From: Nitrospirota bacterium | GTDB lineage: Bacteria > Nitrospirota > RBG-16-64-22 | Direction: 5' to 3' | NCBI GenBank assembly: GCA_016195465.1 | Contig: JACPZO010000135.1 | Coordinates: 1 to 40,717, forward strand | Length of the DNA stretch: 40,717 nucleotides | Part shown: one piece after another, positions 8,673-40,633 of the stretch | Layout of the letters: each line of letters starts with the position of its first letter | Numbering within the stretch: position 1 is the stretch's first letter | Program-made: the position numbers and the translations under genes | Notes under the pieces: model-generated | Database searches by the model: none | Seen by the model: only the letters and a program-made list of their open reading frames with translations | Told to the model about the DNA's origin: nothing

Positions 8673-8760
8673 GTTCACCCATTCACCGATTCACCCATTC
8701 ACCCATTCACCGATTCACCCATTCACCGATTCACCGATTCACCCATTCACCCATTCACCC
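8673..8760. repeat. Perfect ATTCACC[C/G] octamer array, 11 units
   Basis: Eleven consecutive 8-bp units are present. The first begins GTTCACC and the other ten are perfect ATTCACC followed by C or G. Along the plus strand the eighth base reads C, G, C, C, G, C, G, G, C, C, C. The array ends two bases before the stop codon of the AsmA-like gene. It fills the gap 8606-8762 together with about 65 bp of plain sequence upstream of the site-2 protease gene. Confidence 0.95.
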
Positions 8761-8762
8761 TT

Positions 8763-9974
8763 TCAACGCTTCTTCTTCGACAAGAACTTGGCGATCTCCT
8801 CCGTAATCACGATCGCCGCGTCGGCCCCTTCGATCTTGTAGCTGGGATTGTTCGCGGGGCCGGTCACGGCGAACCGGATGGCCCTTCCTCCCGACTCCCC
8901 CTTGAGCCGGAAATCGAGCCGCTCGCGGCGCAGGTCGTATGTCCCGGCGCCCGTCACGACCAGTCCGGCCCCCTGGTAGCGAAGCGGGGAAATGGACAGG
9001 ACGCCGCCGCTCATCCTGAAGTCCGCCGCGATCTCGTCGACCGCGCCGACCGGCCGCGCCGCATCGGCGGCCCGAACGGACATCTTGACCGCCTGGACGA
9101 TCGTCTCCCACTTTTCGGCCCCCACCAGCCGCCCCGAACCGACGCGGATCTTACCTTCCCCCTCGATCCGTTCCGAAAAGGACCCTGTATGTTTCTCGTC
9201 CGCGCGCCACTTCGACTCGAGCGACACCGGCGCGTCGATCCCGAATCCTCCCGACGAGAAAGCCCGAAACAGCGGGAGAGCATCGACGTCCTTCGCGCGC
9301 AACCCAGCCTCGAAGGGCACGGGCACCGTCCTTGTCTCACGAACCAGCGGTCCGACCCTTCCGTCGAGAGACACGTCCCCTTTCTTTCCCGACCGGGCCT
9401 CCGCCGAAAGGCCGACGACCGAGACGGCGGACACGTCCGCAATCGAGGCGCGAATGTCGCGCAGGACCGCGACGCCCTGGGACTCGACGACCCCTCCGGT
9501 GATGTCGACTCGCTCAACCAGGAGCGCCCCGACAAGGAAAGCCCCCGCTCCCCCCCTTGCCTGACTCCCGCCCGACGGGGCCCCCGAGGGGAGATTCCAG
9601 CCGCCCTGACGGGCCGGGGCCAGCGAGACGCGGGGATCCTCCAAGACCACCCGGCCGACGCGGACCTCCCCTTTTAGAAGGGGAAGAAGATGGACGCCGA
9701 ACCTGAGACTCTTGAGAGTCAAGAACGGCCCCTTGGCGCCGGATCCCCCGGGAGACCCGACTTCGATCGACCTGGCCTGAAACCCAGGCGGACACAGGGA
9801 AATCCCCGCGTCACCCACCCGGACGGGGGCGTCCAGGGCGGACGTCAGCCCCTCCTCGACGCGCTGGCGGACGCTCGCCGAATCGAAGCGGGCGGCGATC
9901 AAGACCCCCGCGGCAATGGCGAGGACGGCGAATCCGGCAAGAAGAACCAAGATAACCCGCGTGACCCGGCCCAC
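8763..9974 (-). CDS. AsmA-like envelope protein
   Basis: The protein has 403 residues. One N-terminal membrane anchor (about residues 5-28) is followed by a long beta-rich periplasmic region. The pattern VRVGDAGISLCPPGFQARSI and the following PFLTLKSLRFGVHLLPLLKG and VVLEDPRVSL fit the AsmA/DUF748 N-terminal domain. The C-terminal part (MSGGVLSISPLRYQGAGLVV) resembles the AsmA C-terminal domain. Larger relatives bridge inner and outer membranes and help move phospholipid. The role of this short form is unknown. The GTG start at 9974 follows a strong AAGGAGG site at 5 bp spacing. Confidence 0.75.
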   Translation of the reverse strand: MGRVTRVILVLLAGFAVLAIAAGVLIAARFDSASVRQRVEEGLTSALDAPVRVGDAGISLCPPGFQARSIEVGSPGGSGAKGPFLTLKSLRFGVHLLPLLKGEVRVGRVVLEDPRVSLAPARQGGWNLPSGAPSGGSQARGGAGAFLVGALLVERVDITGGVVESQGVAVLRDIRASIADVSAVSVVGLSAEARSGKKGDVSLDGRVGPLVRETRTVPVPFEAGLRAKDVDALPLFRAFSSGGFGIDAPVSLESKWRADEKHTGSFSERIEGEGKIRVGSGRLVGAEKWETIVQAVKMSVRAADAARPVGAVDEIAADFRMSGGVLSISPLRYQGAGLVVTGAGTYDLRRERLDFRLKGESGGRAIRFAVTGPANNPSYKIEGADAAIVITEEIAKFLSKKKR

Positions 9975-25433: not shown

Positions 25434-26219
25434 TCACTCCCGAAACCGCTCCAGATCCCGGACGGTCTCCGCGGCCCGCGAAGAAACGCGCTCCAGGATC
25501 TCCCTTCCTTTCGCCGCGGAGGCTTTCGCCGGATCTCCCCAGACTCCGCTCTTCCAATAGCGCATTTTCTTCCGAACAAGGATCGCCTTCGGGAACGTCG
25601 GATACTCTTTTTTGGCCGTCCCCGTCACCAGGCCGGGCGCGATCGCAAGAAGGCACGAAGTCTCCATCTCCCCCGCGTGGCTGTCTCCCTTCGTCTCGAC
25701 GAGATCGGACGTCTCGGACTTCATCAGGTCATACGCCGAGAGGAGCGCGACCCGGATGTCCGGAAGGGCGAAGAGCATCTCCTCGCCCACTTCCCGCATC
25801 GCGTTCACGTGCAGACCGCCGGCATGCCCCGTCAGAAGGACGAAGAAGCGCATCCCCTGGGCGTGGAAGCCGCGAATCAGGTCCCTGAGCAACGCCCGGA
25901 ACGTATCCGGCGAGAATCCCACCGTCCCGGGATGGAGGGCCGTGCTCGTACAGATCCCGTAGGAGAGCGCCGGGGCGACGAGCGCCCCCGTGTCCTCGGC
26001 CGCCCGGCGGGCGATCTCCCGCGCGATGATCGTGTCGGTGTCGAGCGGCAGGTGCGGCCCGTGCTCCTCGGTCGACCCCAGGGGAATGATGACCGTCCGC
26101 TTCTTCCGCCGCGCGCGGGCGAACTGCGTCATCGTCAGGTCCGCGATCTCGGACGAGGCTGGTTTCCGCCGCTCCGCTCTCTTGGAAGGCCGTTCTTTCC
26201 TATTCACCCATTCACCCAT
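25434..26219 (-). CDS. Creatininase-family amidohydrolase
   Basis: The metal-binding pattern is complete: PLGSTEEHGPHLPLDTDT (Glu, His, Asp ligands), TGHAGGLHVNAM and DSHAGEMETS. Family members hydrolyse cyclic amides or peptides (creatinine, formamides, the mycofactocin precursor). No mycofactocin genes are seen here, so the substrate is unknown. Start choice is uncertain. ATG 26219 and GTG 26207 lie within an octamer repeat. ATG 26132 is clean but would remove IADLTMTQF, which aligns with the usual family start. It heads the seven-gene minus operon. Confidence 0.82.
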   Translation of the reverse strand: MGEWVNRKERPSKRAERRKPASSEIADLTMTQFARARRKKRTVIIPLGSTEEHGPHLPLDTDTIIAREIARRAAEDTGALVAPALSYGICTSTALHPGTVGFSPDTFRALLRDLIRGFHAQGMRFFVLLTGHAGGLHVNAMREVGEEMLFALPDIRVALLSAYDLMKSETSDLVETKGDSHAGEMETSCLLAIAPGLVTGTAKKEYPTFPKAILVRKKMRYWKSGVWGDPAKASAAKGREILERVSSRAAETVRDLERFRE

Positions 26220-26433
26220 TCACCAAGGCCCAGCCATTGATCGCTCTGTGCCTCTGTGCCTCTGTGCCTCTGTGGCTCTGTGCCTCTGTGCCTCTGTGCC
26301 TCTGTGCCTCTGTGGCTTTCTTTCCCATTCACCCATTCACCAAGGCCCAGCCATTGATCGCTCTGTGCCTCTGTGCCTCTGTGCCTCTGTGCCTCTGTGG
26401 CTTTCTTTCCCATTCACCCATTCACCGATTCAC
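26204..26433. repeat. Composite octamer elements, copies 2 and 3 in tandem
   Basis: Two successive copies are present of: ATTCACC octamers, a conserved spacer (AAGGCCCAGCCATTGATCG), CTCTGTG[CG] units, the linker GCTTTCTTTCC, then ATTCACC octamers shared with the next copy. Copy 2 has nine CTCTGTG units (26244-26315) and copy 3 has five (26361-26400). In both, runs end in CTCTGTGG. Copy 1 is at 1108-1204. The block fills the gap between the creatininase-like gene and the stress protein. It opens reading frames on both strands that are repeat translations, not genes. Confidence 0.95.
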
Positions 26434-26437
26434 CGTC

Positions 26438-27684: not shown

Positions 27685-27716
27685 CGTCTCCTATGCCCCA
27701 GCAAGGTCACCAGAGC

Positions 27717-27849
27717 GATTGTAAATTGAAAATTGTAAATTGGAAATTTCAAAGTGAAAGGCTGGACAAAAAGTGTAAATCGCAAAGCGGGGAACTTCTT
27801 CTCCGTTCTTTCGCTTTACAATTTCCAATTTCCAATTTCCAATTTTCAA
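27717..27849. repeat. AATTGGA/TTTCCAA heptamer array with opposed arms
   Basis: The left arm (27717-27751) has 7-bp units of the AATTG[TAG]A type. The right arm (27815-27849) has five consecutive units of the inverse type, TTTCCAA, TTTACAA and TTTTCAA. The 63-bp centre is A+T-rich and contains the short matching ends TGTAAA and TTTACA. It lies just upstream of the coaX start and its 5' untranslated region may include it. Confidence 0.9.
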
Positions 27850-27868
27850 TGAGCCTTTCGTGGTCCTA

Positions 27869-27975
27869 AAGGCGGGGTTGAAGAACCCCGCCTTGGAAGG
27901 CGGGGATTCTCCGACCTCTAAGGTACTCTTCGTTATTTGCATTCGCGCGCCTTGACCCCGCCCCAAGGGGCGGGG
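27869..27975. repeat. Cluster of three G+C-rich hairpins sharing arms
   Basis: Hairpin 1 is a perfect 11-bp stem (27869-27879 and 27884-27894). Hairpin 2 reuses its right arm (27886-27894 pairing with 27897-27905). Hairpin 3 is a perfect 9-bp stem (27956-27964 and 27967-27975). The repeated core is CCCCGCC/GGCGGGG, followed by GATT both times. No T run follows on the minus strand, so it is not a simple terminator for birA. The paired palindromes recall the ends of IS200/IS605-type elements, but no transposase gene is present. Confidence 0.65.
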
Positions 27976-27998
27976 ATTGCGGCGCACTTTGCGGTTCT

Positions 27999-28835
27999 TC
28001 AAGACGCCCCCGTCCCCGCCTCCGAAGAGGACGCTTCCCCCGCCAAGGAGACGTCCCCGGAGACAACGCGGCTGATCGTCCCATCGGACGCCTCGACCAG
28101 GAGGAAACCCTCGTCGTCGATGCCCCGCGCCACGCCGCGGACGACCCGCTCGTGCTCTCGGACGGTCACCTCCCGCCCGACCATGTCGGAGAGGCTCTCC
28201 CATATCTCGCGGACCGGCTCGAATCCCTCGCTCAGCCAGCGGGCGTAGGAGTGATCGAGGGAATCGATGACCGCCCCGAGAATCTTCTGGCGCGACAGGG
28301 GGCAACCGGCCGCCTCGGCAAGCGACGTGGCCATATGGCGGATCTCTTCCGGAAAACCGGCGGGGTCCGGATTGACGTTGAGGCCGATCCCAATGACCAC
28401 GTGATCGATCGTCCGGCCCGTCGCGGCCATCTCGGTGAGAATCCCGCCGGTCTTGCGCCCCCCGATCCGGAGATCGTTCGGCCACTTGAGCCGGACGGGA
28501 ATGCCCGTCTCGGTCCGAAGACCGGCGGCGAGGGCCGCGGCCGCCACGAGCGTAAGCTGGGGGGCGCGGGCGGGCGGAATCGGCGGACGCAAGAGGACGG
28601 AGAACGTCAGGCTCTTTCCGGGCGTAGAGAGCCAGCTTCGTCCCAGGCGGCCTCGGCCGTGCGTCTGCCTCTCCGCGAGAACGACGATCCCTTCGGGGTT
28701 TCCCTGGCGCGCCAGGGAATGGGCGACCTCGTTCGTCGAGGACACCTCGCGCTCGTAGATGAGCGTGTGCCCGATCGCCTTGCCCTGACGGGACGCCACG
28801 ATCTGATCGGGAAAGAGAACGTCGAGCGGATCCAC
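27999..28835 (-). CDS. birA: BirA, biotin--[acetyl-CoA carboxylase] ligase
   Basis: The protein has 278 residues from a GTG start with GGGAG ahead. Catalytic motifs are GRGRLGRSWLSTPGKSL (biotinoyl-AMP loop), LKWPNDL and KTGGILTE. The C-terminal SH3-like domain starts near residue 225 (VGREVTVREHERVV). No N-terminal helix-turn-helix is present, so this is a ligase-only (class I) enzyme that should not repress transcription. Its place next to coaX groups two cofactor functions. The last 15 residues are Ser/Ala/Gly-rich. Confidence 0.96.
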   Translation of the reverse strand: MDPLDVLFPDQIVASRQGKAIGHTLIYEREVSSTNEVAHSLARQGNPEGIVVLAERQTHGRGRLGRSWLSTPGKSLTFSVLLRPPIPPARAPQLTLVAAAALAAGLRTETGIPVRLKWPNDLRIGGRKTGGILTEMAATGRTIDHVVIGIGLNVNPDPAGFPEEIRHMATSLAEAAGCPLSRQKILGAVIDSLDHSYARWLSEGFEPVREIWESLSDMVGREVTVREHERVVRGVARGIDDEGFLLVEASDGTISRVVSGDVSLAGEASSSEAGTGAS

Positions 28836-28932
28836 GGGCCGTCTCCCTGGTGCGGACTGTCTGGAGGACTCGGACCCTCATTCTACCGAATCGCCCCCGG
28901 AGGCGCAACGACGACAAATGACGAAGTTTTCG

Positions 28933-29016
28933 GATTGGAAATTGTAAATTGGAAATTGTAAATTTTCAAATCGGGCTTCTTGTTCCTTCGTTTTCCAATT
29001 TCCAATTTCCAATGTA
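28933..29016. repeat. AATTG[GT]A/CAATTTC heptamer array with opposed arms
   Basis: Four left units (28933-28960, AATTGTA and AATTGGA types) face three right units of the inverse type (CAATTTC, 28996-29016). A linker of about 35 bp holds A+T-rich sequence. It is the same family as 27717-27849. The gap 28836-29141 also holds a degenerate octamer pair (CCATTCACCGATTC near 29025) and the nfu promoter, and no gene. Confidence 0.88.
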
Positions 29017-31861: not shown

Positions 31862-31918
31862 GCGGAGAACGATTGGAAATTGGAAATTGGAATGTGACCG
31901 GCCCATCCACCCGGCCGG
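31862..31918. repeat. Convergent-gene gap with a short heptamer run and a hairpin
   Basis: Three ATTGGAA-type heptamers at about 31871-31892 match the left arm of the arrays at 27717 and 28933. No inverted arm follows. A 6-bp stem CCGGCC/GGCCGG spans 31898-31918 and ends at the stop codon of the minus gene. Without T runs on either strand I do not call it a terminator. Confidence 0.5.
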
Positions 31919-35249: not shown

Positions 35250-35267
35250 GGCGGGAAAAGAAGCGGC

Positions 35268-35344
35268 GAGTTCGGAGCGAGGGGTTCGGAAACGACGAAC
35301 CAAGGTTCTTCATCTCCGAACTCCTGACTCCGAACTCCGAACTC
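35268..35344. repeat. TTCGGAG/CTCCGAA heptamer array with opposed arms
   Basis: Eleven consecutive 7-bp units run without a break in register. The left units are GAGTTCG and GGGTTCG, and the right units are CGAACTC and CTGACTC. The orientation switches near 35300. It lies between the secA stop codon and the GGDEF-operon promoter. It is a fourth consensus built with the same architecture as the other arrays in this window. Confidence 0.85.
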
Positions 35345-35365
35345 CCAGATCTCGTCCTTCCGCAC

Positions 35366-38059: not shown

Positions 38060-38164
38060 GTCATTGGTTATTGGTTATTGGTCATTCGTTATTGGTTATT
38101 CGTCGATCGCCATTCATCATTGACCATTAACGATTAACGATTGACCATTGACGATTGACCATTA
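38060..38164. repeat. Fifteen-unit heptamer array in the secA leader
   Basis: Fifteen 7-bp units keep one register from first to last base, with ATT at the same place in all but one. The left units are GT[TC]ATT[GC] and the right units AC[CG]ATT[AG], so the arms are roughly inverse in sense. The secA start is 13 bases from the array and the likely secA promoter begins at its other end, so nearly the whole array is transcribed as the 5' leader. Confidence 0.92.
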
Positions 38165-40429: not shown

Positions 40430-40633
40430 GTTATTGGTCAATCGTTAATCGTTCGTTAATCGTTAATCGTGAATGGTCAATCGTGAAGCGTCAATGGTCA
40501 ATCGTTAATGGTCAATCGTTAATGGTCAATCGTCAATGGGTCAATGACGAATGGCGATTGACGAATAACCAATAATGATTGACCAATAACCATTGACCAA
40601 TAACCATTGACCAATAACCATTGACCAATAACC
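40430..40633. repeat. Long heptamer array of about 29 units with strand switch
   Basis: Up to about 40530 the units are GT[TC]AAT[CG]. From there they become AC[CG]A[AT]T[AG], the reverse-complement sense. Small register slips occur near 40451 and 40529. The array fills the gap between the HD-GYP gene and the next gene, except for about 70 bp adjacent to the HD-GYP start. It is the longest member of the family also seen at 1-42 and 38060-38164. Confidence 0.93.

Follow-up and report, generated by a model that had tools for sequence, protein, structure and literature searches.

The STRR of cyanobacteria are degenerate heptanucleotide tandem runs that lie between genes, usually in one orientation. 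The arrays reported here resemble them as degenerate intergenic heptamer runs, a likeness of description. Bacterial heptamer repeats have been noted for decades, and we know of no mechanism for them.

There are also close precedents. First, the GGGAATC and GGGGAYT repeats of Xanthomonas and Nostoc, as described by Rehm et al. (2015; PMC4692102), are like ours in their 7-bp units, their intergenic location and their placement near the 5' neighboring gene. Convergent pairs of GGGAATC arrays are frequent in Xanthomonas (70 of 186 and 75 of 183 arrays), and lengths differ among relatives, again as in our arrays. The GGGAATC and GGGGAYT repeats differ in having a quadruplex-capable G-tract and a single word per organism, and the portions of the paper considered here do not mention dispersed cores. 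Our units (ATTGNAA, ATTSGTY, TTCGGAG and GGTCGAA) have no GGG run, so they are not of the quadruplex G-tract type. Second, the TAACTGA repeats of Beggiatoaceae, Cyanobacteria and Bacteroidetes are also intergenic tandem heptamers that, read in one of the two orientations, have stops in three frames (MacGregor 2015, PMC4679880). Their patchy distribution suggests transfer, and MacGregor proposed that they are functional signals such as sites for RNA-binding proteins. However, in the Beggiatoaceae genome they lie mostly right before start codons and are almost never inverted (169 direct sets and 1 indirect). Third, the P6b stem of the Nostoc trnL intron carries heptamer words on each of its sides, which belong either to class I (TDNGATT) or to class II (NNTGAGT), and has undergone repeated word swaps at the same site (Kaasalainen et al. 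2015, PMC4476775). This too resembles our arrays, but it is one site within a group I intron.

In view of the Xanthomonas pairs and the Nostoc stem, the background to the original prediction for the DNA studied here, that STRR are normally single-orientation, was too strong. Intergenic heptamer arrays, convergent pairs, a stop-rich orientation and word replacement are already in the literature (PMC4692102; PMC4679880; PMC4476775). The present analysis contributes a combination of features: the presence of many words in one genus, a polarity rule that holds across words, a negative mirror test, dispersed cores, and the gain and loss of whole units.

Repeat arrays in the window

The stretch of DNA that we analyzed (the window) is contig C147, of 40,717 nucleotides, from a Nitrospirota assembly of 2.60 Mb in 198 contigs that is 93% complete. 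The original prediction described six intergenic arrays with 7-bp units and different consensus words, each turning once to its reverse complement. We scored the period-7 self-match and the best inverted match of each array as z scores, with dinucleotide shuffles as the null. All six arrays are present where they had been placed, their words differ as claimed, 7 is the best lag (among 4 to 12) in all six, and the inverted turns are far above chance (z of 7 to 27).

The GGTCGAA/TTCGACC dyad at 2071-2171 (period-7 z of 6.8, inverted z of 7.2) separates the minus-strand genes lpxA and lpxI; Pfam places LpxI at 1210-2010 and an LpxA-type acyltransferase at 2173-2985. The AATTGGA array at 27717-27849 (z of 7.1 and 18.9) is part of a dispersed element of about 162 bp (27704-27865), which has a conserved core between ATTGNAA arms at 27718-27748 and 27815-27850 and has copies at unrelated sites. 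Another ATTGNAA dyad, at 28933-29016 (z of 7.2 and 8.1), has a short unique core. The TTCGGAG/CTCCGAA dyad at 35268-35344 (z of 5.3 and 10.0) adjoins the stop codon of secA, and an ATTSGTY/RACSAWT dyad at 38060-38164 (z of 10.8 and 11.3) separates secA from a peptidase M23 gene. The same word family forms the long dyad at 40430-40633 (z of 12.4 and 27.5), whose first arm has one register shift, from phase 1 to phase 5, and whose RNA fold z is -7.6. Five arrays of the window were folded and have strong predicted structure. The unbroken register across the turn that had been claimed for 35268-35344 and 38060-38164 is not general: across 22 ATTGNAA dyads in the genome, the phase between arms takes 6 of the 7 possible values.

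The list of six was selective. ATTGGAA occurs three times in a single orientation at 31872-31892 (plus strand), and one arm of the word family of 38060-38164 and 40430-40633 is truncated by the contig end at 1-42. Octamer arrays, made of GGTGAATS and GGSACAGA words, lie on the minus strand at 1137-1206 (CTCTGTGC, then CCCATTCA), at 8674-8765 (TTCACCCA/GGTGAATS, in one orientation) and at 26199-26435 (alternating blocks of CCCATTCA and CTCTGTGC). Another dispersed repeat, about 122 bp long and distinct from the 27704-27865 element, lies at 27876-27997; it has 17 copies in 1.69 Mb and, judged by eye, resembles an IS200/IS605 end. At the gathering score, an Rfam 15 search of the window gave no match to any curated family.

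Periods and words across the genome

We scanned 1.69 Mb (65% of the genome) with genes from a codon-model caller written for this analysis, whose stops can be trusted more than its starts. Two periods stand alone, with 149 arrays at period 7 and 167 at period 8; other unit lengths from 4 to 13 have at most 17 arrays each, and multiples of the two periods (14, 16, 21, 24 and 28) also show up. Markov-2 control sequence contained no arrays at period 7 or 8. The period-8 arrays, which the first reading of the window overlooked, are thus as common as heptamers. ATTGNAA is the main heptamer word (about 100 arrays), with smaller families of ATTSGTY, GTTCGGA, GGTYRAA and GCTGA, and the octamer words are GGTGAATN and GGSACAGA. 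A single degenerate consensus for all of the heptamer words, tried by eye, was rejected, since two families have dyads that imply a conflicting orientation.

Almost all of the arrays are intergenic (314 of 324 at periods 7 and 8 together), and 200 of the 869 gaps that span 40 bp or more hold one. Contigs start within arrays (the window, 1-42; L047, 3-52; and L048, 1-24), so the assembly probably breaks at arrays, and our counts of them are probably too low. The same 1.69 Mb also contains other dispersed intergenic palindromes, of the types TAGGTTGGGTT (24 copies), CTCCTCCCCTTTGTAAGG (23 copies) and TGTAGGGCAAGGC (27 copies).

Convergent pairs

The original prediction was that a common process makes dyads whatever the word. 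Genome-wide, arrays are mainly single-orientation, an outcome that the prediction itself had named as refuting it, with one arm in 98 of 123 period-7 clusters, or in 94 if only single-array clusters are counted. By orientation, 54 of the 123 clusters are forward, 40 are reverse, 20 are convergent and none are divergent; the remainder are tandem. The dyads do exceed expectation: with arms from word-specific scans and random placement as the null, we found 22 convergent pairs for ATTGNAA (1.5 expected), 7 for ATTSGTY (0.06 expected) and 13 for TCAGC (0.2 expected). Such pairs include 44 of 107 ATTGNAA arms, 14 of 24 ATTSGTY arms and 26 of 36 TCAGC arms. The corresponding counts are 12 of 123 for the octamer GGTGAATN (1.9 pairs expected), 0 of 26 for GGSACAGA (0.1 expected) and 0 of 10 for exact GTTCGGA (0.02 expected). 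One architecture is therefore shared by ATTGNAA, ATTSGTY and TCAGC, but the octamers and the many single-orientation arrays show that it does not extend to every word. Dyads are a habit of certain heptamer words rather than a universal rule.

Where neighboring arrays are opposed, 57 pairs are convergent and 1 is divergent. Neighbors with identical words are convergent in 45 cases, divergent in none and tandem in 8; for different words, the counts are 12, 1 and 28. The forward direction of ATTSGTY and TCAGC was set from their own dyads, and with both left out, pairs of different words are 6:0 convergent to divergent. In other phyla, the ratio is 15:2 for exact two-unit ATTGNAA arms and 22:5 by a cruder count of arms, and in one Nitrospinota genome it is 10:0 from listed coordinates.

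These counts bear on whether the arrays are ordinary simple-sequence repeats, which would arise by slippage in each gap, be favored at 7 to 8 bp and be kept where harmless, with pairs formed when two arrays meet. Tandem duplication is visible, lengths vary among congeners, and Mrazek's polymerase-footprint bias for heptamers, as cited in Rehm et al. (2015; PMC4692102), would fit as well. However, slippage does not account for the excess of ATTGNAA and TCAGC pairs over random placement or for the 57:1 polarity. The dispersed cores and the recurrence of the single word ATTGNAA in many phyla, both described below, also count against it, and the presence or absence of arm, core and arm together between congeners already suggests otherwise. 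We consider slippage by itself an unlikely explanation.

Formation of the arms

The first mechanism offered by the original prediction was slippage with fold-back (hairpin) copying, in which the second arm is made from the first, whatever the word. That all six listed arrays are good inverted repeats, and that the five we folded have strong predicted structure, is in keeping with this. But fold-back copying predicts that the variable base of ATTGNAA appears in mirror order across the arms, and the mirror score was 1.18 within the 22 ATTGNAA dyads versus 1.43 for swapped partners. Arm lengths within dyads are also uncorrelated (r = 0.07), the variable base often interrupts the predicted stems, 12 convergent pairs combine different words, and octamers seldom pair. 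In foreign genomes the mirror score is raised, a value that is confounded by the word preference of each genome. Hairpin copying seems very improbable, and the facing pairs and whole-unit turnover described here fit small mobile elements better. Protein-guided duplication, the other mechanism in the original prediction, may play a part.

Within arrays, the variable base of ATTGNAA recurs at a lag of two units more often than in within-array shuffles (0.59 versus 0.45), and so does that of the octamer (0.53 versus 0.45), which implies duplication two units at a time.

Another way to obtain two facing arrays would be a template-bound or template-free polymerase that adds the word to 3' ends at breaks. 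Convergent pairs, arms that vary independently and mixtures of words are all expected under this mechanism, but it leaves the dispersed cores unexplained, and we give it very little credence, slightly less than hairpin copying. That the RVT_1 domain was not found in the congeners G001 and G002, both equally array-rich, also counts against it, and synthesis by a reverse transcriptase or telomerase-like enzyme was rejected on this ground.

Dispersed cores

Eleven of 21 ATTGNAA dyad cores fall into three families (of 5, 4 and 2), and the other 10 are unique. The conserved cores align at unrelated genomic sites. Over its length, the window element at 27704-27865 matches sequences in L105 (94%) and L092 (89%), and copies are present in G001 at 91-94% identity. 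In one core family, exact inverted ends of 20 bp (GAATTCAAGAAAGACGGATTG) lie beyond the heptamer arms of some copies; there are six such ends in G000, weak matches in G001 and none in G002, and they are not evident in the core family of the window element.

The dyads are like MITEs in that they are short, carry no protein gene, and have inverted ends, dispersed copies and presence or absence among relatives. Unlike MITEs, their ends are tandem arrays of variable length, and we found no matching transposase or target duplication. In particular, no target-site duplication is visible in alignments of filled and empty sites, whose flanks are strongly diverged, and a comparison of Y1 transposases with arrays in 41 genomes tied no transposase to the arms. 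Y1_Tnp transposases are present in 29 of the 41 genomes, mostly in those without ATTGNAA arrays. A Y1 transposase was rejected as the cause because its presence is uncorrelated with the arrays.

Gaps compared between congeners

Our two comparison genomes, G001 and G002, are about 90% identical to the genome. G002 appears to be Hainich H52-bin057-1, since L191 and G002:C30 give matches with identical coordinates. Long stretches of L245, from Nitrospirae bacterium RBG_16_64_22, share 90-94% identity with the genome, which places the organism in that Nitrospirota lineage. We sorted 19 gaps by eye, each chosen for having an array in at least one species (35268 from coordinates only): 7 have the same word family, 6 have a different family, and 6 have an array in one species alone. 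Given this choice of gaps, and with insertions limited to gaps, the replacement of words at one gap may partly be coincidence.

Whole units come and go. A whole dyad in L150 (G001) is missing from L009, and in the comparison of L092 with L279, a TCAGC/GCTGA dyad is set whole into an octamer array. In the window, 27693-28003, with both the dyad and the 122-bp repeat, corresponds to about 22 bp in G002: the 27704-27865 element is missing from the orthologous gap (L191), together with the 122-bp repeat, which has many copies in both G001 and G002. By coordinates only, the 114 bp of gap content at 35252-35365 have shrunk to about 7 bp in G002. Other gaps have changed in part. The gap of the 28933-29016 dyad holds one arm and another repeat in G002, and the 38060-38164 dyad aligns contiguously in G002 and has diverged in G001. 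L151 and L139 share arms around a replaced core. Words are replaced as well: L155 holds ATTGAAA where L022 holds GTTCGGA, and the gap of 31872-31892 is filled by CTCTGTGC octamers in G002. The octamer blocks of 26199-26435 are short in G001, and there are none in the aligned G002 gap. More broadly, array lengths differ between congeners.

Position and orientation relative to genes

In co-directional gaps, single octamer arrays are sense in 73 cases and antisense in 7, and they start a median of 3 nt from the stop codon. For single ATTGNAA arrays in such gaps the ratio is 32:13, and for single GGSACAGA arrays it is 15:4. Most sense words contain TGA or TAA in every frame. These features would be expected if the arrays were functional RNA or DNA signals after genes, such as all-frame stops, terminators or sites for RNA-binding proteins. 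However, GGSACAGA is mostly sense and has no stop codon, so all-frame stops were rejected as the sole cause of orientation. Also, orthologous gaps lose arrays or exchange one for another, and for genes on the local minority strand the few ATTGNAA arrays divide into 3 sense and 4 antisense, so the orientation of ATTGNAA may follow the neighborhood. A role for the hairpin fails to explain polarity, since a divergent pair folds equally well. Functional signals are, in our judgment, an improbable origin for the arrays.

Two other candidates were set aside. Replication-strand bias as a cause of sense orientation was dropped because too few arrays were informative to separate it from transcription. 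The other candidate, that a word always has its 5' end at the gene edge (the 5' end is the nearer one in 78 of 92 octamer, 41 of 56 ATTGNAA and 19 of 22 GGSACAGA single arrays), is partly a consequence of placement near stops, and foreign antisense arrays break it.

At foreign ATTGNAA loci, sense orientation is not significantly favored (20:9, p = 0.06), and many matches lie inside called ORFs. The two that we checked are in-frame runs inside Patescibacteria genes (L188, 233-1462, and L185, 6873-8000), which by sequence encode MurC and a radical-SAM-like protein; in MurC, ELKIGNCKLKIV precedes SDYGHHPTQ. Others of the in-ORF matches may be due to greedy ORF calling.

Distribution across bacteria

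The exact 4.5-unit ATTGNAA pattern occurs in at least 112 stretches from many phyla. We re-searched 40 foreign genomes, picked for carrying ATTGNAA and hence not representative of bacteria at large, and all 40 have three-unit arrays, some of them dozens; a reversed-string control in the same genomes gave almost none. Desulfonema magnum, which has been cultured, has the word at dozens of sites. The genome of L249 (G080, Moraxella lacunata) has 61 three-unit matches forward and 0 in reverse. Among relatives outside the genus, 2 of 38 have the ATTGNAA pattern. TTCGGAG was found in 2 of the 40 foreign genomes, and a common octamer vocabulary across phyla was rejected, as GGTGAATS is absent from 44 foreign genomes.

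A model for heptamer dyads

The best-supported reading, which we put forward tentatively and at somewhat less than even odds, is that these are MITE-like units with heptamer arms that also undergo local tandem duplication. A heptamer dyad would be a small intergenic element without a protein gene, made of two convergent arrays of the same word around a core. Dyads would be gained and lost as whole units and be partly dispersed through the genome, as MITEs are, and each arm would grow and shrink independently by tandem duplication, often by two units per step. Single arrays would be solo or broken dyad ends or, in the case of the octamers, would consist of non-pairing words, and the sites would be gaps, mostly right after a stop codon, where insertion may be least harmful. 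The comparisons above demonstrate that polarity is convergent, that arms vary independently, that cores are dispersed, that entire units can be present in one species and missing in another, and that words replace each other at orthologous gaps. From them we infer that a putative recombinase uses the arrays as its terminal inverted repeats and that arrays standing alone descend from dyads. Several features count against the MITE-like reading: no transposase was tied to the arms, no target-site duplication was seen, the 20-bp ends are few, and 10 of the 21 cores are unique. In addition, the octamers, which make up more than half of the material, mostly lack a partner and are least well explained, and identical arms flank unrelated cores, which is unusual for MITEs.

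A bolder possibility, which we regard as improbable, is that a widespread new class of mobile element uses heptamer arrays as its functional ends. A putative recombinase would bind the tandem words, need two facing arrays and carry any core; the words would mark different enzymes, with ATTGNAA common to many phyla.

These results carry a warning for genome analysis, in that assemblies probably break at the arrays and that in-frame arrays within genes can pass for protein sequence, as in the MurC of Patescibacteria. More broadly, polarity in several words and several phyla, together with independent arms and whole-unit turnover, makes it possible to ask, in testable form, whether what had looked like strange microsatellites are mobile.
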